A stretch of DNA of 64,000 nucleotides from Streptomyces sp. NBC_01445 (GTDB lineage Bacteria > Actinomycetota > Actinomycetes > Streptomycetales > Streptomycetaceae), in contig NZ_CP109485.1 of assembly GCF_035918235.1 (NCBI RefSeq), positions 434,001 to 498,000 of the forward strand. Direction: 5' to 3'. Under the pieces are notes generated by a model. It saw nothing but the letters and a program-made list of their open reading frames with translations, did no database searches and had not been told where the DNA came from. Of the stretch, positions 25,139 to 41,820 are shown piece after piece. The position numbers and the translations under genes are program-made. Each line of letters begins with the position of its first letter. Positions within the stretch are counted from its first letter, which is position 1.

Positions 25139-26296
25139 TTATGGGGTGGCAGGGACGCGTGACTCACGCCCCGCAGTCCACACAGCCTCGCCCTTGCGGG
25201 CGATGTTGTAGGAAGCGTTCCGGTCTGCGTGGGCAACGACCCCGCAGTTGAGGCAGGTGAACAGGGCCTGGCTTGCCCGGTTCTTCTTGTCGATGTGGCC
25301 GCACTCGCAACACTGCTGCGACGTGTAGGCGGGATCGACGAAGACCACGGGGACGCCGGCCCTGCGGGCCTTGTAGACGATGAAGTCTGCGAGCTGGGCA
25401 AAGGCCCAGGAGTGGAGCGCGACCCGTTGGGGCTTGCGGAGCCGTACCCTCTGCCGGATTCCCCTGAGTTCTTCCAGGGAGATCCCGGCCGAGGTGCGTT
25501 CAGCCTCGGTCACGATCGTCTTGGCGATGATGTGGTTCTGGTTCTTCGCGTGGCGCTGTTCGCGCCGGTTGCGCTTCTTCAACAGCCGCTTGGCGGACTT
25601 GGTGGACTTGGCCTGGAGTTTCCTGCGCAGGTCGAGTTGCCGCTTGCGGTGGCGGTTCAGGCCGCGCCCGGCGGTCTTGTGGCCGGTGGATGTGGTGGCG
25701 ATGTTGGCGATTCCCAGGTCCACGCCGATGAAGTGGTCGGGCTCGTACTGCTCAGCCTCGGGAACGTCACAGGTCGCGAGCAGGTAGAACACGCCGTCGC
25801 GTTCGATCAGGTCCGACTCGCCCTGCCGGTGGTCCCGGAGCGTCTTGAGTGCGTCAGGCGAGCAGGCAAAGCGGACGTTCTTGATGCGCCCAGCGGTTGT
25901 CCAGATGGACACGGTCTGCGCGTCGTACTGCCAGCTCAAACACCGGTCGTCATACGATTGCGCGGCCTCGGGCCGAAACGTGATCGGCTTGGACTCCGCC
26001 TTGCCGCGACGCTGAGAGCCTTCCTTGCCGAGATTCCCGGCACGGATGTTGGCCCTGAGCGTCGTGTAGGCGTCGCGGGTCTTCTTGATGATGTGCTGGG
26101 CGGCCTGCGCCCCCAGTCCCCGCGACCGCAGTTCACCGTAGGTGTGCTTGCGCAGCTCGTACTCACGCGGGACACCGTGCTAGAACGCCACCGCCGACAC
26201 CCAGTTCGCGGCCTCGTTGACCGTGTGCAGCGTCACCGACAGCGCGGCGGCCTGCTCGGCCTCCGGCATCAACTTCACTTGCACGACGATCTTCAC
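25139..26296 (-). pseudogene. tnpB: tnpB, RNA-guided endonuclease family, with an internal amber codon
   Basis: From GTG 26296 the frame reads VKIVVQVKLMPEAEQAAALS, reaches TAG at 26180-26182 after 38 codons, and continues in the same frame for 346 codons to 25139. The long part has all TnpB landmarks: RuvC motifs with the first Asp in IGVDLGIANIA, Glu in ISLEELRGI and last Asp in HADRNASYNIA. A zinc ribbon CxxC...CxxC lies between (CCECGH, CLNCG). Without the amber codon the protein would be 385 residues, normal for the family. A downstream GTG or TTG restart could still give an N-truncated product. Known TnpB proteins cut DNA next to the element under guidance of an RNA from the element end. 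Confidence 0.82.
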
Positions 26297-26316: not shown

Positions 26317-26749
26317 ATGTCACCACACTGGGAGCCAAACCCCAATATTCGTAAGGGTCCCACGGTCGCTACACCCTCCACGCCCACTTGGTCTTCACAC
26401 CCAAGTACCGGCGCGGACCGTTCACCGACGAGATCCTTCGACGCTGCGAGGAAGTCATGCGCGCCGTCTGCGCGGACTTCGAAACAGAGTTGGTCGAGTT
26501 CAACGGCGAGACCGATCACGTGCACCTGCTGGTGCACTACCCGCCGAAGGTCTCCCTGTCCCGGCTGGTCGGCTCCCTCAAGGGCGTCTCCGGCCGCAGG
26601 CTCCGTCAGGAGTTTCCCGGGCATATCCGCACGTACCTGTGGGGTGGCCACTTCTGGTCGCCCTCGTACTTTGCCGCCTCGTGCGGGGACGCCACGCCCC
26701 GCTGTCGATCATCAAGGAGTACATCGAGAACCGGAAACGTCCCGGCTGA
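26317..26749 (+). pseudogene. tnpA: tnpA, IS200/IS605 Y1 (HUH) transposase with two frameshifts
   Basis: ATG 26317 starts MSPHWEPNPNIRKG, the usual N-terminus. The frame then shifts and the body continues as YTLHAHLVFTPKYRRG, CADFETELVEFNGETDH and VHLLVHYPPKVSLSRLVGSL. Here HVH supplies the HUH metal ligands. After YFAASCGDA a second shift occurs, and the C-terminal helix with the catalytic Tyr (LSIIKEYIENRKRPG) is in another frame, ending at 26749. No single frame joins the HUH motif to the Tyr, so the enzyme should be inactive. Each shift is explained by a single-base indel. Confidence 0.82.
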
Positions 26750-26809
26750 GGCCAACCGTGCGGACCCGTGGGAACCTGCAGGTCACAGCAGTCCAGAGAA
26801 GCGCTTCCT

Positions 26810-26829
26810 CCCGGGCGTGAACGCCGGGG
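26810..26829. repeat. tnpA-side end hairpin of the IS605-type element
   Basis: CCCGGGCGT-GA-ACGCCGGGG: a 9-base-pair stem with one mismatch and the same GA loop as the opposite end, 60 bases beyond the tnpA stop. Confidence 0.55.
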
Positions 26830-26830
26830 T

Positions 26831-27345
26831 TCCGCGCTAGATCCTGCTGAAGCCACCTTCGGCAGCACGCACGGGGACGGTCCCTCAGGCCCGCCCGCGC
26901 GCCGCGTGATCGCGGCTGCGCTCGGAGAACAGCAGGTCGGCCGGGGCCGGTGGAAGAGCACTGCAGTTGGCCCGCCTGGCCAAGTGGCGCTCGGTTGCCT
27001 CAAGAAGGGACAAGGCCACAGGCGAGAACAGCATTGCGGGACGGCGGCTGCACGAGATGCAGGACTTCTACGACTTCATGCACTGGCTCGGAGCAGTGCT
27101 TCTACGCGTCTGCGCCTAGCACCCAAAAGCCCCAACCAGATTTCCCCGGTTGGGGATTTTCGGTGCTAGGCGCAGACAGGTGAGGCATTGGTCTAGGCCA
27201 GCCGCTCCTGTCCCAGTATCCTCGCCCGTAGCCAGTGGCACACAATCCCCCCACCCACGTTGCGTGCTGGCGCGGGCGACGCCCGCTCAACTCCGCCCAA
27301 AGCAGCCGGGTGAACTCCCCCCACTCGCCGCCTCTAGGAGTCACG
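26831..27345. other. intergenic stretch with a large hairpin
   Basis: Besides the 70-base inverted repeat at 27108-27177, a short plus-strand frame ends at the TAG inside its left arm (ARLAKWRSVASRRDKATGEN, then MQDFYDFMHWLGAVLLRVCA). It is protein-like but unrecognised, perhaps a transposase relic. AGGAG before 27346 is the ribosome-binding site of the next gene. Confidence 0.4.
27108..27177. repeat. long nested inverted repeat (70 bases)
   Basis: The outer arms GTCTGCGCCTAGCACC and GGTGCTAGGCGCAGAC pair perfectly over 16 bases. Four A-T pairs follow inside, then CCCCAACC with GGTTGGGG, around a 10-base loop. In all, 28 of 30 stem positions pair. It lies between the IS605-type element and the PQQ-type dehydrogenase gene. 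It could be a strong bidirectional terminator, the precursor of a structured RNA, or a recombination or element-end structure. Confidence 0.7.
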
Positions 27346-28485
27346 GTGAAATTTCGCACCAGAAGCTCGGCGATCATCGGCACCATCTGCCTTGCCACTT
27401 CCCTCGCTTTCGCCACGGCGTACGCCGACGAGCCGGCCGCCCCGCCCCGGGCAGCGGCAGGTGTCGCGCTCACGGAAGTGGCCACGGCCCAGAATCCGAC
27501 CGCAGGTGTCGCCGGGCCCGGCGGCACTGTCTGGATAGCCGAACGCGCGGGCACCGTACGGGTCTTGGACGACCGAGGGCTCGGTGAGCCCGTTCTCGAC
27601 ATATCCAGTGAGACGACCACCGACGGCGAACGCGGCCTGCTGGGCGTGGCGTTCGACAACGAGTTCGAGCACTTCTACATCTCGTACACGGATCTCAAGG
27701 GCACTAGCACCATCGACGAGTTCGCCGTGCAGTACGGCGCGATCCAGGCGGACTCCCGGCGTACGGTCCTCACCCAGACGCAGCCGTACGAGAACCACAA
27801 CGGTGGCGACATCAAGTTCGGCCCCGACGGCTACCTCTACATCGCGTTCGGCGACGGCGGCTCGGGCGGTGACCCGCAAGGCAACGGGCAGAGGCTCGAC
27901 ACGCTGCTCGGCAAGCTCCTGCGGATCGACCCGAGCGGCGGCGAACCGTACGCGATCCCGGCGGACAACCCGTTCGTGGACGACCCGGCCGCGAAGGACG
28001 AGATCTGGTCGTACGGGCTGCGCAACCCGTGGCGGTTCTCCTTCGACTCGGGGACCGGCGACCTGCTGATCGGTGACGTCGGCCAGAGCGACTGGGAAGA
28101 GATCGACTGGGCCCCGGCGGACAGCGAGGGCGGCGAAAACTACGGCTGGGCCTCGATGGAGGGTACTCATCCCTTCCGGGGTGGCACGGAGCCCGCGAAC
28201 CACGTGCCGCCGGTCCATGAGTACGACCGCAACGGGCTGGGCTGCTCGGTGACCGGTGGATACGTCTACCGCGGCGACGCGATCCCGGACCTTCAGGGGC
28301 AGTACCTGTACAGCGACTACTGCGACGGCACCGTGCGCGGTCTGACGATCGAGAACGGCGAGGTGACCGGCCAGAGCGACCTCGGAGTCAACGGCGGTGA
28401 GGTCGTCTCGTTCGTGGAGGACGGCGACGGGGAGCTGTACGTGCTCGCCCTTGGCGGCAGCATCTCCCGCATCGACCCGGCGTAA
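27346..28485 (+). CDS. secreted PQQ-dependent sugar dehydrogenase family protein
   Basis: 379 residues. A signal peptide (SSAIIGTICLATSLAFATAYADE) is followed by a six-bladed beta-propeller of the soluble glucose/sorbosone dehydrogenase family. Markers are GGDIKFGPDGYLYIAFGDGGSGGDPQ, LGKLLRIDPSGGEPYAIPADNPF, WSYGLRNPWRFSFD and DVGQSDWEEI, which hold the PQQ- and Ca-binding positions of the family. The start is GTG 27346 behind AGGAG. The predicted role is oxidation of aldose sugars outside the cell with PQQ as cofactor, though many actinobacterial homologues have untested cofactors. A terminator follows, so the gene is monocistronic. Confidence 0.88.
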   Translation: MKFRTRSSAIIGTICLATSLAFATAYADEPAAPPRAAAGVALTEVATAQNPTAGVAGPGGTVWIAERAGTVRVLDDRGLGEPVLDISSETTTDGERGLLGVAFDNEFEHFYISYTDLKGTSTIDEFAVQYGAIQADSRRTVLTQTQPYENHNGGDIKFGPDGYLYIAFGDGGSGGDPQGNGQRLDTLLGKLLRIDPSGGEPYAIPADNPFVDDPAAKDEIWSYGLRNPWRFSFDSGTGDLLIGDVGQSDWEEIDWAPADSEGGENYGWASMEGTHPFRGGTEPANHVPPVHEYDRNGLGCSVTGGYVYRGDAIPDLQGQYLYSDYCDGTVRGLTIENGEVTGQSDLGVNGGEVVSFVEDGDGELYVLALGGSISRIDPA

Positions 28486-28997: not shown

Positions 28998-29597
28998 GTG
29001 ACCGTAGTTCGCCACACGCCGAACGCTCTCGGCGCCCTGTCCACAAACGTCCGCCTCACCGTCTTCGGCGCAGTGGTGGCGGCAGCCGCCGCCCTGCTCC
29101 CCGTCGCTTCCGCCTCGGCTGCAGAACCAGGCGTCGGCGGTTACACCGACCCCTCGTACGCCTCCGCGTGCACCTTCCACCGCTACGGCGAGGGCGAGAC
29201 GCCGCCGCTCTCCCTGTTCGCCGCCGACCCGCTGTGCGTCGAGTACGCCAAGCGGGACATCACCGTGGCCAACGGCGGCGCGGCGCGCTTCCTGCTGGCC
29301 GAGCCGGCGCGCTTCGCGATCGCCGTACCGGCCTGCCGTTACTGGCAGTTGGACCATTGGAGCGTGCAGGCCGCCGCCGGCGGAACCGAACTGGTCGGCT
29401 GGGACGGCAGTTACTGGTTCGACAAGGCGGAAGGCAGCGCCGCAGCGAGGGTACGCAACATCACCGTCGCCGGGCAGCCCGCGCGGGCCGAGGACGCCGC
29501 GAAAGTGATACGGCCGTACGACGCCCGGCTCGCCGACGCGCTCGTGCGCGACGCCGCGGGTGTGACGGTGCGGCTGCCAGTGAGCGGGCTGTGTTGA
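28998..29597 (+). CDS. secreted protein of unknown function, first gene of the GMC operon
   Basis: 199 residues. The N-terminus has a basic start, a hydrophobic core (LTVFGAVVAAAAALLPVAS) and an Ala-x-Ala cleavage site near ASAAE, so it is exported, probably by Sec. The mature part is beta-rich with aromatic residues and four Cys (ACTFHRYG, DPLCVEY, PACRYW, SGLC at the end), which could form two disulfides. There is no CxxCH haem motif. GTG 28998 follows AGAAGG. Its stop overlaps the start of the Tat-signal protein. No family recognised. Position suggests a partner or accessory factor of the exported flavoenzyme. Confidence 0.72.
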   Translation: MTVVRHTPNALGALSTNVRLTVFGAVVAAAAALLPVASASAAEPGVGGYTDPSYASACTFHRYGEGETPPLSLFAADPLCVEYAKRDITVANGGAARFLLAEPARFAIAVPACRYWQLDHWSVQAAAGGTELVGWDGSYWFDKAEGSAAARVRNITVAGQPARAEDAAKVIRPYDARLADALVRDAAGVTVRLPVSGLC

Positions 29598-30313
29598 GCG
29601 AACCGCCCGCACGTCCCGATCGGCGCCGGCTGCTCGTCGGGCTGACCGCTGCCGTCGCCGCCCTGCGGGCAGGGGAGCTGACCGCCGAGGCCGCGCCGTC
29701 GGCGCGGCCTGTGTCCGAGTCGGTCCCGGTGGCTCGGGCCGGGCTGCAGCCGGCTTCCCTCGCGCTGCCCGACCCGACGACCGCCACGCTGGAGGCGTTT
29801 GCGGACACCATGGTCCCGGGCGAGAAGCGGTACGGCGGTGACGTGGCGATCGCCGGGGCGGCCCCCGGTCCCGGCGCCGTACAGGCGGGGGCCATCGAGC
29901 TGCTCAACCTTCCCGATCTCGGCATCGGCGTACTGCTGCCCGAGCTGGCACTGCTCGTCAACACCCGCGCCCTCGCCTATGCGGCCACCCACGGCCGGTT
30001 CCTGCTGCCCACTCAACCTCCCTTCGTCGCCCTGCGGTTCACCGACCGCACCGCGCTCGCCGGAGAGCTGCTCACACCCGGCGCCCCGGACCGGCAGCTG
30101 TACGTGCTGCTCGCACTCTTCGCCGCGGCGGCCTTCGACACCGCAGCCCACCTGCACACCGCCGCAGCCATCCGGCAACGCCACCCGGGCCTGGCCTGGA
30201 TCGGCTTCCCGGCGCCCGACGCCGACGGACTGTGGCGCTTCCCCGACTACTCGTACGGCAGAAGGCTCGCCTCCGAGCACCCGCTCACCACCCCCGGAGG
30301 GCACCCCGCATGA
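29591..30313 (+). CDS. Tat-signal protein, DUF5987-like; probable GMC oxidase partner
   Basis: 240 residues starting at GTG 29591 inside the preceding gene. The N-terminus is a Tat signal (RPDRRRLLVGLTAAVAAL). The mature part, from LPDPTTATLEAFADTMVPGE, is helical. It resembles in size, layout and context the small subunits (gluconate 2-dehydrogenase subunit 3 type) that accompany FAD-dependent GMC dehydrogenases and carry the export signal for both. The GMC protein encoded next, with ATGA overlap, has no signal of its own, so co-export by this subunit is the natural reading. The DUF assignment is from memory of the pattern. Confidence 0.68.
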   Translation: MLSEPPARPDRRRLLVGLTAAVAALRAGELTAEAAPSARPVSESVPVARAGLQPASLALPDPTTATLEAFADTMVPGEKRYGGDVAIAGAAPGPGAVQAGAIELLNLPDLGIGVLLPELALLVNTRALAYAATHGRFLLPTQPPFVALRFTDRTALAGELLTPGAPDRQLYVLLALFAAAAFDTAAHLHTAAAIRQRHPGLAWIGFPAPDADGLWRFPDYSYGRRLASEHPLTTPGGHPA

Positions 30314-31905
30314 GCGTCACCGAACGCACCGACGTGCTGGTCATCGGCAGCGGCTTCGGGGGCGCCATCCCCGCCTACCATCTGGCCGCGGGTGGCGCCA
30401 AGGTGGTGATCCTCGAACGCGGACCGCACCTCACCGCCCCCGACTTCACCCATGACCTGCGCCTGGGCAGCTATACCCGGATCGTCGACCTCGTGCAGGG
30501 CGACGGCATCACCGTCGTCGCCGGGAACTGCGTCGGCGGGTCCAGCGTGGTCTACTTCGCCGCTTCGCTGCGGGCTCCGGGCTTCGTCTTCGACCGCCGC
30601 GGCAGTCTGGGCCACCGCCTGTGGCCTTCGACCCTGACGCGCGCGGCACTCGACCCGTGGTACGACCGGGTCGAGGAGGCTCTGCCCGTCGCCGAGCAGA
30701 GCTGGGACCAAGTCCCCTACCCTGGAGGCTTGTTCGCTGCAGCGTGTGCCCGTGCGGGCCGCACCTGCAACCCTGTGCCCGTCGCCGTCGACCTGGCCCG
30801 CTGCACCAACTGCAACTGGATGCTGAACGGCTGCCACTTCGACGCCAAGCGCTCCATGCTGCTGAACTACCTCCCCGCAGCGACCGCGCACGGCGCCGAG
30901 ATCCGCCCACTCCACGAGGCACAGACGATCGCGCCCGCCACCACACCCGGTTACCGCTACCGCGTCTCGTACACGCAGCTCGACGCCGGCGACTACCGGC
31001 TGCCGGCCGGCGTGGGGGCGATCGAGGCCAAGACCGTGGTGCTGGCCGCGGGCGCTCTGGCCACCCCCGTGCTGCTGCAGCGCTCGGCTCCCCTGCTCGG
31101 CGGTATCCCGCAGGCCGTCGGGCGCTACTTCTCGGGCAACGGCGACCGCGTGTCCATCGCCGACGTCGACGAAGGCAAGGTGCGCGACCTGCTCGGTCTC
31201 GAGCGCGCCCAGGGCATCCCGTACCAGGGCTTCCCCATCGGGAAGCCCATCGGCTCCATGTCGTACGACCGGCTCGACCCGGCAACGGCGGAGTTCACCC
31301 GTTTCTCCCTTCAGCAGATCTACTTCCCCGGCATCACCGACCTGCTGGCCCAGGCCACCGACACCCCGGCGACGAGCTGGTTCGGCGTCCGGAAGAAGGA
31401 GATGCGGGCACGCTGGCCCTCGTGGCTCTCCGTGCTCGCCATGACCGAGGACGACAACGAGGGCGTCTTCGGCCCGCCGCCGCCCACCGGAAGCTCGACG
31501 CGCGTGGCCACATCGCTCTGCCTGTCCACCCTCTCGTACCGGCCGACAGCGAACACCCTGCGTGGCTGGGCCGCCGCGGATGCCGAGGCCCGCGCGGTGC
31601 TGGAGCGCGACGGTCTAGCGCGGGTGCGGCCCTGGAGCGAGAACGCCGCCGGGTCCGTGAGCGCGCACCCCCTCGCCTCCTGCCGGATGGGTGACGATCC
31701 GGCCACCTCGGCGCTCGACGAACGCGGCGAACTGCGAGGCCATCCCGGCCTGTTCGTCACCGACGGCTCGGCAGTACCGACCTCGCTCTGTGTCAACCCC
31801 TCACTGACGATCGCGGCACTGGCCGAACGGGCCTGTCCCGGCATCGTGGAGAGCACCGCCGAGGCGGGCGTCCGCGCACGATACGGGGCCCCCGCGCCCC
31901 GGTGA
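30310..31905 (+). CDS. GMC-type FAD-dependent oxidoreductase (cholesterol-oxidase-like group)
   Basis: 531 residues. The FAD-binding motif is at the N-terminus (VLVIGSGFGGAIPAYHLA). GGSSVVYFAASLRAP marks the GMC flavin-contact segment. A Cys-rich stretch RCTNCNWMLNGCHFDAKRSM resembles that of cholesterol-oxidase-like GMC proteins. The C-terminus has ENAAGSVSAHPLASCRMG (catalytic His region) and LFVTDGSAVPTSLCVNPSLTIAALAERA. Substrates of the family are alcohols, sterols or sugars, and the acceptor is unknown. No signal peptide is visible. The start overlaps the stop of the Tat-signal protein (ATGA), so the two are probably made and exported together. Confidence 0.87.
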   Translation: MSVTERTDVLVIGSGFGGAIPAYHLAAGGAKVVILERGPHLTAPDFTHDLRLGSYTRIVDLVQGDGITVVAGNCVGGSSVVYFAASLRAPGFVFDRRGSLGHRLWPSTLTRAALDPWYDRVEEALPVAEQSWDQVPYPGGLFAAACARAGRTCNPVPVAVDLARCTNCNWMLNGCHFDAKRSMLLNYLPAATAHGAEIRPLHEAQTIAPATTPGYRYRVSYTQLDAGDYRLPAGVGAIEAKTVVLAAGALATPVLLQRSAPLLGGIPQAVGRYFSGNGDRVSIADVDEGKVRDLLGLERAQGIPYQGFPIGKPIGSMSYDRLDPATAEFTRFSLQQIYFPGITDLLAQATDTPATSWFGVRKKEMRARWPSWLSVLAMTEDDNEGVFGPPPPTGSSTRVATSLCLSTLSYRPTANTLRGWAAADAEARAVLERDGLARVRPWSENAAGSVSAHPLASCRMGDDPATSALDERGELRGHPGLFVTDGSAVPTSLCVNPSLTIAALAERACPGIVESTAEAGVRARYGAPAPR

Positions 31906-31917
31906 AAGGAATCCCTC

Positions 31918-32856
31918 GTGAGCTCGCTCTACCCGCCGCGGATGACCGGTCGTCCAGGGCGGCTCGAAGTCTGGTACGCGACGCTGACCGATCCCCGGAC
32001 CGGGACCGGCGTGTGGATCCACCACGAAGTGGTGACGCCCAAGCACGGCGGCCCGGCCCGGGCGCATGGCTGGATATCCGTTTTCCCGCCGGACGGGCCG
32101 CCGGTCACCGAGCAGTTCGGGGTCCCGGACTCCCCGCCGCCCCAGGGCGAGGCGTACTTCGAGGTGCCGGGGGTACGGGCAACGCCCCGGCTGCTGGAGG
32201 GCACCGCGGGCGCGATCACCTGGCGCCTGTCGGTCACCGGGGGCGGCGATCCCCTCTACACCTTTCCGCGCTGGTCCTGGGAGCGTGAACTGCTGCCCGC
32301 CGCCCAGATCCTGCCTGCCCCCGATGCCATCTTCGAGGGGGAACTCGTCGTCGGGGAGCGGCGGTTCACCCTCTCCGGCGCCGTGGGAGGCATCGCCCGG
32401 ATCGCCGGTCACGGCAATGCCCAGCGATGGGCGTGGCTCCATGCGGGCCTGGGCGGCGGGGACGTACTGGAAGTGGTGGCCGCTGTCGCCCGCCGTCCTA
32501 CGATGCGGTGGCTGCCACCTCTGCCCATGCTTCAACTGCGGATCGGTGGCACCGACTGGCCGCGCGACCCGTTGCTGACCGCGCCACTGCTGCGCGCACG
32601 GATCGGGCTGCCCGACTGGTCGGTCGCAGGCGGCACCGCGCGGCGCAGGGTACGGATCGATGTGACCCAGGACCCGGCCGACTGTGTGTCGCTCTCCTAC
32701 ACCGACCCCGACGGAGCGACCGCCACGTGCACCAACACGGAGCGCGCCACCGTCGACGTGATCGTCGAACGCCGCACCGGGCTGCACCGCTTCGAGGTGG
32801 AACACCGCTGGCATCTGGATCGCACGGGTCACGCGGAGGTGGGAACGCGCCCGTGA
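31918..32856 (+). CDS. conserved hypothetical protein, lipocalin-like (CrtC/AttH type) by pattern
   Basis: 312 residues, start GTG 31918 behind GAAAGGAA, 12 bases after the GMC gene. It is beta-rich throughout, with repeated Trp-containing strands (LEVWYATLTDPRTGTGVWIHHEV, AHGWISVFPPDG, AITWRLSVTGGGDPLYTFPRWSWE, HGNAQRWAWLHAGL). These suggest the double lipocalin fold seen in CrtC/AttH and tocopherol-cyclase-like proteins, which bind hydrophobic ligands. There is no signal peptide. As the last gene of the operon it may process or bind the lipophilic substrate or product of the GMC enzyme. The assignment is structural guesswork. Confidence 0.6.
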   Translation: MSSLYPPRMTGRPGRLEVWYATLTDPRTGTGVWIHHEVVTPKHGGPARAHGWISVFPPDGPPVTEQFGVPDSPPPQGEAYFEVPGVRATPRLLEGTAGAITWRLSVTGGGDPLYTFPRWSWERELLPAAQILPAPDAIFEGELVVGERRFTLSGAVGGIARIAGHGNAQRWAWLHAGLGGGDVLEVVAAVARRPTMRWLPPLPMLQLRIGGTDWPRDPLLTAPLLRARIGLPDWSVAGGTARRRVRIDVTQDPADCVSLSYTDPDGATATCTNTERATVDVIVERRTGLHRFEVEHRWHLDRTGHAEVGTRP

Positions 32857-33015: not shown

Positions 33016-33060
33016 GGAGGATGCCCCCGTCGCCGGCCTGCGGCGACGGGGGCATCCTCC
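33016..33060. terminator. bidirectional intrinsic terminator
   Basis: A perfect 20-base-pair stem (left arm 33016-33035 begins GGAGGATGCC, right arm 33041-33060) with a 5-base loop sits between two convergent genes ending at 32856 and 33082. It should stop transcription from both sides. Confidence 0.88.
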
Positions 33061-40866: not shown

Positions 40867-41820
40867 ATCCCCGACGCCTACACCACCTTGAAGGCGAACC
40901 TCCGGGCGGGACGTTACGGGCAGCCCGGCACGAAGCGGCACGCCCGCGCCTCGGGCAAGCCGGTCGTCTTCCGGCCCCAGGCGGCTCAGCCGTATGACGA
41001 CCGGATGCTGTCCTGGCAGCACCAGGCACGCACGGTATCGATCTGGACCACCGCGGGCCGGCTCAAGGGCGTGGCGTTCACCGGGCAGGCCGGGCAGCTG
41101 GAGGTCCTGGCTGCGCACCGCCAGGGTGAGTCCGACCTGGTGTGCCAGGGCGGGAAGTGGTTCCTGATCGCGACCTGCGAGGTCCCCGAGGGGGATCTGA
41201 ACACTCATCCGGACGGGTTCCTCGGCGTCGACCTGGGGATCGTGAACATCGCGGTCACCTCCGATGGCGAGCGCCACTGCGGCAGGCGGATCAACCGCAA
41301 GCGGGAACAGGATCGCAAGCTGCGTTCCAAGCTACAGAAGAAGCACACCAAGTCCGCCAAGCGGCGGGCGAAGAAGTACGCGGGCAAGGAAGCCCGGCGG
41401 AACAAGGACATCAACCACAAGATCAGCAAGCGGATCGTGGCGGAGGCTGAACGCACCGGTCGCGGGATCTCCCTGGAGACACTCACGGGCATTCGCGAGC
41501 GGGCACGGCTGAGAAAGCCCCAACGCACCACGCTCCACTCCTGGCCCTTCGCCCAGCTCGGCTCGTTCATCGCCTACAAAGCGAAGCGGGCCGGGGTGCC
41601 GGTCGTGCACGTCGACCCGGCCTACACCAGCCAGGAATGCTCGCAGTGTCATCACACCGAACGCGGCAACCGGCCCGCCCAGGCCGTCTTCTCGTGCCGG
41701 GTCTGCGGCTTCGTTGAGCACGCAGACCACAACGCGTCCCACAACATCCGCCAACGCGGGTGGTACGTGTGGGTCTGCGGGGCCCAGTCAACGGCCCCCG
41801 AACTCACCCTCATCGCGTGA
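40867..41820 (+). pseudogene. tnpB: tnpB (IS605 family), 5' truncated
   Basis: The coding match begins at PDAYTTLKANLRAGRYG, directly after the truncated DDE transposase. It runs to the normal C-terminus at 41820. RuvC residues are present (VDLGIVNIAVT, ISLETLTGIRERA, HADHNASHNI), as is the zinc ribbon (CSQCHH, CRVCG). About 80-90 N-terminal residues are missing and there is no native start codon. It is clearly related to, but distinct from, the tnpB at 25139-26296: SWQHQARTVSIWTTAGRLKG here against SWQYDAQTVSIWTTAGRIKN there. A hairpin 51 bases after the stop marks its right end. Confidence 0.78.

Follow-up and report, generated by a model that had tools for sequence, protein, structure and literature searches.

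The four-gene operon

The window, a 64,000-nucleotide stretch of Streptomyces sp. NBC_01445 (genome of 11.47 Mb, two contigs), contains four open reading frames on the forward strand with a third-position GC content of 0.85-0.89, the codon bias of actinomycetes. Gene 1 (28998..29597) and gene 2 (29591..30313) overlap by 7 bases, genes 2 and 3 (30310..31905) overlap by 4 bases, and a gap of 12 bases separates gene 3 from gene 4 (31918..32856). The ATG start of gene 3 at 30310 lies inside the stop of gene 2 (ATGA). Gene 2 itself starts with GTG, and a TTG at 29594 is possible too. A candidate transcript end was recognized by eye at 33020..33056 (+), where a perfect, GC-rich 15-base stem is formed with no T run; this stem is not among the predictions of the terminator scan.

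Gene 1 encodes a protein of 199 residues with a Sec-type N-terminus by eye and cysteines at positions 58, 80, 113, and 199. It belongs to no Pfam family. We aligned the window protein with 65 of the 120 homologues listed out of 327 found (alignment A3, 66 rows); C58, C80, and C199 were invariant and C113 was kept in at least 90% of the rows. Foldseek and VIA-align comparisons of its model (pLDDT 83) with the PDB returned nothing usable (best Z 3.8). A role as a cytochrome was ruled out, as gene 1 has no CxxCH.

Gene 2 encodes a DUF5987 protein (PF19449; 262.5 bits against a gathering cut-off of 27, E 2.3e-78), a family left unnamed in the open literature searched. Its Tat signal contains the twin arginines at residues 11-13 (codons at 29621..29629, +) in the stretch RRRLLVGL, which recurs in the homologues at L009, L013, and L058. 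The protein contains no Cys. Gene 3 encodes a 531-residue GMC flavoprotein, for which both GMC_oxred_N and GMC_oxred_C scored above cut-off. Its FAD motif GSGFGG begins at residue 13, which leaves no room for a signal, and none was found. The 312-residue product of gene 4 may be tocopherol-cyclase-like (lipocalin-type) and has no signal. It matched no Pfam family at E<=1; in the precomputed annotation the 120 homologues listed are assigned to PF14249 (tocopherol cyclase), and four of six homologues scanned matched this family with E values of 0.009 to 0.11, all below cut-off. Many gene 4 homologues have 450-500 residues (P0119, P0051, P0041) and exceed gene 4 by about 150; no Pfam family was found in the additional part of those scanned.

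A sequence-only reading of this DNA had described four genes that overlap or nearly touch, namely a secreted Cys-containing protein, a Tat-signal "DUF5987-like" protein, a GMC oxidoreductase without a signal of its own, and a beta-rich lipocalin-like protein. This layout is real and placed as described. The first protein carries the Sec-type signal and the four conserved cysteines, the second is a clear member of the DUF5987 family, and the third, starting at ATG 30310, is signal-less.

A glucose/sorbosone dehydrogenase-type protein (PF07995, E 4.8e-44) is encoded at 27235-28485, about 500 bases upstream of the operon. It was rejected as a member of the system, because, among 63 loci with crude gene calls, L058 is the only one in which its ORF family (F45) is seen again. 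Mobile elements are also present in the window: an IS200-type transposase at 26388-26840 (+; PF01797, E 1.4e-34) and two TnpB-like proteins at 25139-25939 (-) and 40888-41820 (+; PF07282 Cas12f1-like TNB, E 3.5e-22 and 4.6e-23).

Conservation of the gene 2-gene 3 pair and its two clades

In the GMC scan, for which each species was represented by a single genome, the best 80 of the 305 stretches that matched correspond to 77 distinct loci. Sixty-four of them were close matches (at least 49% identity) and 13 were distant (27-39%). Among these best 80 stretches, a DUF5987 gene lies directly upstream of the GMC gene in 62 of the 64 close matches. The misses are L069, whose contig starts partway through the gene, and L077, where the copy is broken; with both set aside, the close set comprises 62 loci. 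All 62 have the 4-base DUF5987/GMC overlap, in frame and open into the GMC gene (best 80 of 305 stretches), and the GMC start codon at the overlap is ATG in 60 cases and GTG in two. The overlap exceeds chance, and the pair is translationally coupled. DUF5987-GMC fusions, sought as proof of contact, were absent among the above-cut-off DUF5987 matches, the longest frame of which spans 442 residues. The broken GMC remnant (L077, 8001-8677) belongs to Actinacidiphila rubida and lies near transposase-like sequence by eye; the same strain carries L018.

The close loci fall into two groups. A gene 1 homologue is found upstream in 21 of the 62 loci and is missing in 41, and the Tat signal on DUF5987 is present in exactly the same 21 and in none of the other 41 (best 80 of 305 stretches). 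The signal was called by script in 59 loci, 19 of them positive, and by eye in L020 and L022, which have it, and in L053, which has none. Alignment A1 (DUF5987) comprises 52 of the 62 loci plus the window, and alignment A4 (GMC) 21 loci plus the window. DUF5987 has the Tat signal in the additional genomes G170 and G248 too.

The tree, which leaves out L058 and L064 (split GMC matches), L073 (a near-copy), and L078 (a cut row), places the 21 rows with the signal (the window and 20 loci), called the exported clade after this motif, and the 40 signal-less rows each on one side of a branch. The support values are 92 and 83, neither of them starred. The residue at position 153 of gene 3 (codon 30766..30768, +) follows the same division: it is Cys in 21/21 exported-clade rows and Ala in 40/40 signal-less rows. 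This implies that the joint pattern of Tat signal, gene 1, and Cys153 reflects one evolutionary split that has been kept since, and not 21 independent cases, and that Fisher test values exaggerate the association. Judged by the tree and the best 80 of 305 stretches, the window belongs to the exported clade, whose closest relatives are the signal-less sister pair; the nearest named relatives of gene 3 are from Streptomyces.

The signal-less pair occurs in several actinomycete families (L023, L025-L049, L051-L057, L060-L064, L066-L068). We classified a locus as enediyne-type if at least one of PKS (KR-DH), 4HBT thioesterase, DUF1702, and UnbV lay within 8 kb, taking DUF1702 and UnbV to be enediyne-cluster proteins. 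Such markers were found in 36 of the 41 signal-less loci, the exceptions being L035, L041, L044, L049, and L057, as compared with none of the 21 exported loci (best 80 of 305 stretches). The enediyne-type pair, for example that of L064, resembles the window in gene order and in the 4-base overlap, with a mean GMC identity of about 61%. It differs in having no Tat signal, gene 1, or Cys153 and in its position among PKS, thioesterase, DUF1702, or UnbV genes. According to PMC5181780, the L064 strain, Streptomyces sp. CB02261, is predicted to produce a nine-membered enediyne; the main text of that paper does not contain the word "oxidoreductase", and a word search in the open text of PMC9464397 gave no match for the enediyne-clade pair either. 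We did not find the step of this pair described in open papers, and the subscription literature may describe it. The 36 marker-bearing loci point to a recurrent enzyme of enediyne-type clusters. If the exported clade does secrete its enzyme, the same kind of pair would serve outside the cell as well as within enediyne-type clusters.

At the level of 394 genomes of the class, DUF5987 scored above cut-off in 15. A strong gene 1 match was found in five and a weak one in two more; four of the five strong matches adjoin DUF5987, and the fifth (G238) lies at a contig end. Gene 4 homologues were detected in 36 genomes, comprising 5/5 with a strong gene 1 match and 31/389 others, so gene 4 mostly lives without gene 1. 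Gene 4 is absent from all 11 genomes that have DUF5987 but no gene 1. Among the best 80 of 305 stretches, gene 4 immediately follows the GMC gene, on the same strand, in 7 of the 21 exported loci, and lies within the 8 kb flanks in 14/21 exported loci vs 0/41 signal-less ones; one of the 14, the match in L015 (29% identity), is doubtful. The full four-gene order is also found in G170 and G248, which belong to another family of the same class, and gene 4 is on a separate contig in G445. From these counts and positions, gene 4 is probably linked in function to the operon, yet it is no fixed part of it. The four-gene unit of the sequence-only reading thus holds for genes 1-2-3, the conserved core of the exported clade, but not for gene 4.

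Probable kinship with FAD-dependent sugar dehydrogenases

In the Burkholderia glucose dehydrogenase, as described in PMC9727119, the small subunit is a Tat hitch-hiker protein bound to the catalytic subunit, a disulphide joins this subunit to the flavoprotein, and a 3Fe-4S cluster is the primary electron acceptor from FAD, followed by haem c. The window resembles this enzyme (gamma-alpha-beta; 6a2u) and the fructose dehydrogenase (7w2j) in that a signal-less GMC protein is encoded beside a small subunit with a Tat signal, as judged by motif only. Gene 3 matched 6a2u with a profile E value of 2.6e-21. The window differs in that no multihaem cytochrome c gene accompanies the pair in the operon, a four-Cys secreted protein precedes it, and Met stands at one Fe-S cysteine position, so that the known 3Fe-4S cysteine spacing is not present. 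Its small subunit is DUF5987 and not Gluconate_2-dh3 (PF13618), and has no Cys for an intersubunit disulphide.

Gene 2 showed no match to PF13618 at E<=1, and the whole genome of the window gave none. An adjacent PF13618-type small subunit was found beside all 13 distant GMC relatives (best 80 of 305 stretches); ten of these scored above cut-off, and those of L075, L080, and L083 below it. The small subunits of L072-L076 matched DUF5987 weakly (E 0.009 to 0.16), and that of L075 matched the two families about equally (E 0.006 for PF13618 and 0.009 for PF19449). From the other side, the DUF5987 protein of L033 matched PF13618 weakly (E 0.054). An hhalign comparison of the DUF5987 profile with the five-row small-subunit profile of L072-L076 yielded a probability of 94.3 (E 1e-7), part of which comes from the signal region. 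A Foldseek search of the PDB with the DUF5987 model (pLDDT 85) gave no match at E<=0.001, which means that the solved glucose-dehydrogenase small subunit was not matched either; VIA-align gave nothing usable. The DUF5987 profile gave one chance-level hit (E 0.24) among PDB sequences. The five-row profile gave none there; this test is weak, because it missed the known glucose-dehydrogenase small subunit too. The profile and family matches suggest that DUF5987 is likely a remote relative of the Gluconate_2-dh3 small subunit.

By analogy with the FAD sugar dehydrogenases, we consider it probable that genes 2 and 3 encode an exported, cytochrome-free, two-subunit flavoprotein in which DUF5987 serves as the Tat escort. 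The sequence-only reading had drawn the analogy with gluconate and sugar dehydrogenases as well, and it is strengthened by the small subunits of the 13 distant relatives, the hhalign result, and the coupling in 62/62 close loci. Its suggestion that the GMC protein may hitch-hike on the Tat partner stands in part: it fits the exported clade (21 of 62 loci), but not the 41 loci in which the DUF5987 partner has no Tat signal, 36 of them enediyne-type, and these count against it under the condition that the reading itself had set. Since these 41 pairs have no signal, export would be a trait of one clade and not of the pair as such. If the proposal is true, secretion of a folded flavoenzyme via the Tat signal of its partner becomes testable in streptomycetes, and the DUF5987 family would gain a function.

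The 41 homologous pairs without a Tat signal, which would work in the cytoplasm, also suit a different explanation. DUF5987 might be an assembly chaperone or structural subunit, its Tat signal exporting DUF5987 alone or anchoring a complex at the inner face of the membrane, while the GMC protein works in the cytoplasm; that Foldseek gave no link of DUF5987 with the known escort subunit favors this view. However, retention of the signal in 21 of 62 loci and in G170 and G248 would be hard to explain if the folded partner stayed behind, and GMC Cys153 is kept in exactly the exported clade. We regard this explanation as unlikely. Cys153 also occurs in five of the six aligned distant rows (L072-L076), all five with Tat-type small subunits; seven of the 13 distant loci (L079-L085) were left unaligned. 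The residue is thus kept where the protein should meet an oxidizing space, which agrees with export, though as a single split.

The distant loci L072, L075, and L076 combine a GMC protein (31-39% identity) and a neighboring small subunit of Tat type, which has a match to PF13618 and a weak one to PF19449, with a multi-CxxCH protein beside the pair, which in L072 matches cytochrome c families. Unlike in the window, the small subunit is encoded downstream of the GMC gene and the cysteine at the Met171 site is kept. These neighbors would be in line with the window pair being a true FAD dehydrogenase that works with a cytochrome, the gene for this electron-transfer partner lying at another place in the genome. 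The cysteines of gene 3 argue against this. The motif Cys165-x2-Cys168-x6-Cys175 (30802..30834, +) lies where FAD-glucose dehydrogenase has its Fe-S cysteines, which we assigned on our assumption of which 6a2u cysteines are the 3Fe-4S ligands. C165 and C175 match the 6a2u cluster spacing and C168 is extra, and a differently spaced cluster is possible; but Met171 stands where one cluster-motif cysteine of 6a2u aligns in 61/61 close rows (L085-6a2u and family alignments), and in the glucose dehydrogenase this motif passes the electrons to haem. Moreover, none of the four genes contains CxxCH. Eight CxxCH motifs were found in the long frames of the window; of these a single one, in a TnpB-like transposon protein, lies in a frame that is clearly coding by its base bias. 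The absence of cytochrome c noted in the sequence-only reading extends to every convincing nearby coding frame, and we consider a cytochrome-linked enzyme very unlikely.

Proposed electron acceptor, substrate, and partners of the pair

His453 (31666..31668, +) and Asn496 (31795..31797, +) are conserved in 61/61 close and 6/6 aligned distant rows. They align with the His/Asn pair of cholesterol oxidase, and we take His453 to be the GMC active-site His and Asn496 its partner. Cholesterol oxidases (1coy, 1b4v) are also the top-scoring solved relatives of gene 3 (profile E 7e-33). They are single proteins with their own signal, and they use O2. Gene 3 scores well short of the cut-off for this family (NF058674, 89.8 bits vs 850), and three NCBIfam models of the mycofactocin dehydrogenase MftG gave 23 to 56 bits with cut-offs of 300 to 400.

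With no cytochrome, no small-subunit cysteine, and one Fe-S ligand position missing, the exported clade may contain an oxidase or use a new acceptor. The earlier claim that the acceptor would be new does not follow, given that the top solved relatives are cholesterol oxidases; for the same reason O2 is a fair guess. A narrower version, compatible with the escort proposal, is an exported, O2-using, cholesterol-oxidase-like enzyme for a sterol- or terpenoid-like alcohol, with gene 4 as a lipid carrier inside the cell. Besides the solved relatives, the tocopherol cyclase label of the gene 4 homologues (among the matches listed) and the presence of gene 4 in every genome with a strong gene 1 match speak for it. 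We nevertheless hold it to be rather unlikely, as the score with the NCBI cholesterol-oxidase model is so low and the enediyne-clade sister must use another substrate.

Returning to the escort proposal, we envisage that DUF5987 binds the GMC subunit while both are being made, and that in the exported clade its Tat signal would bring both through the membrane, folded and with FAD in place. The gene 1 protein, which would leave the cell on its own by the Sec route, may join or serve the complex outside. There the GMC subunit would oxidize an alcohol with His453/Asn496 and pass the electrons to O2 or to some other acceptor, without a cytochrome. In some lineages the lipocalin-like gene 4 protein, remaining in the cytoplasm, could handle a substrate or product that is lipophilic.

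Gene 1 is the best candidate for the outside partner, because it tracks the Tat signal exactly. We tentatively propose, while thinking it doubtful, that gene 1 may found a new family of secreted electron-acceptor or stabilizing subunits that replaces the cytochrome, giving a haem-free, three-subunit exported flavoenzyme, and that the signal-less sister pair may be an unrecognized conserved enzyme of enediyne biosynthesis.

Two exported operons have further neighbors in common. A fatty-acid desaturase and an NAD/FAD/2Fe-2S reductase are encoded near the operon of L070 (10613-13362), and by clustering the same two ORF families are present near that of L020 (14917-17098), the two loci being from different families. 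These neighbors may hint at a lipid substrate.
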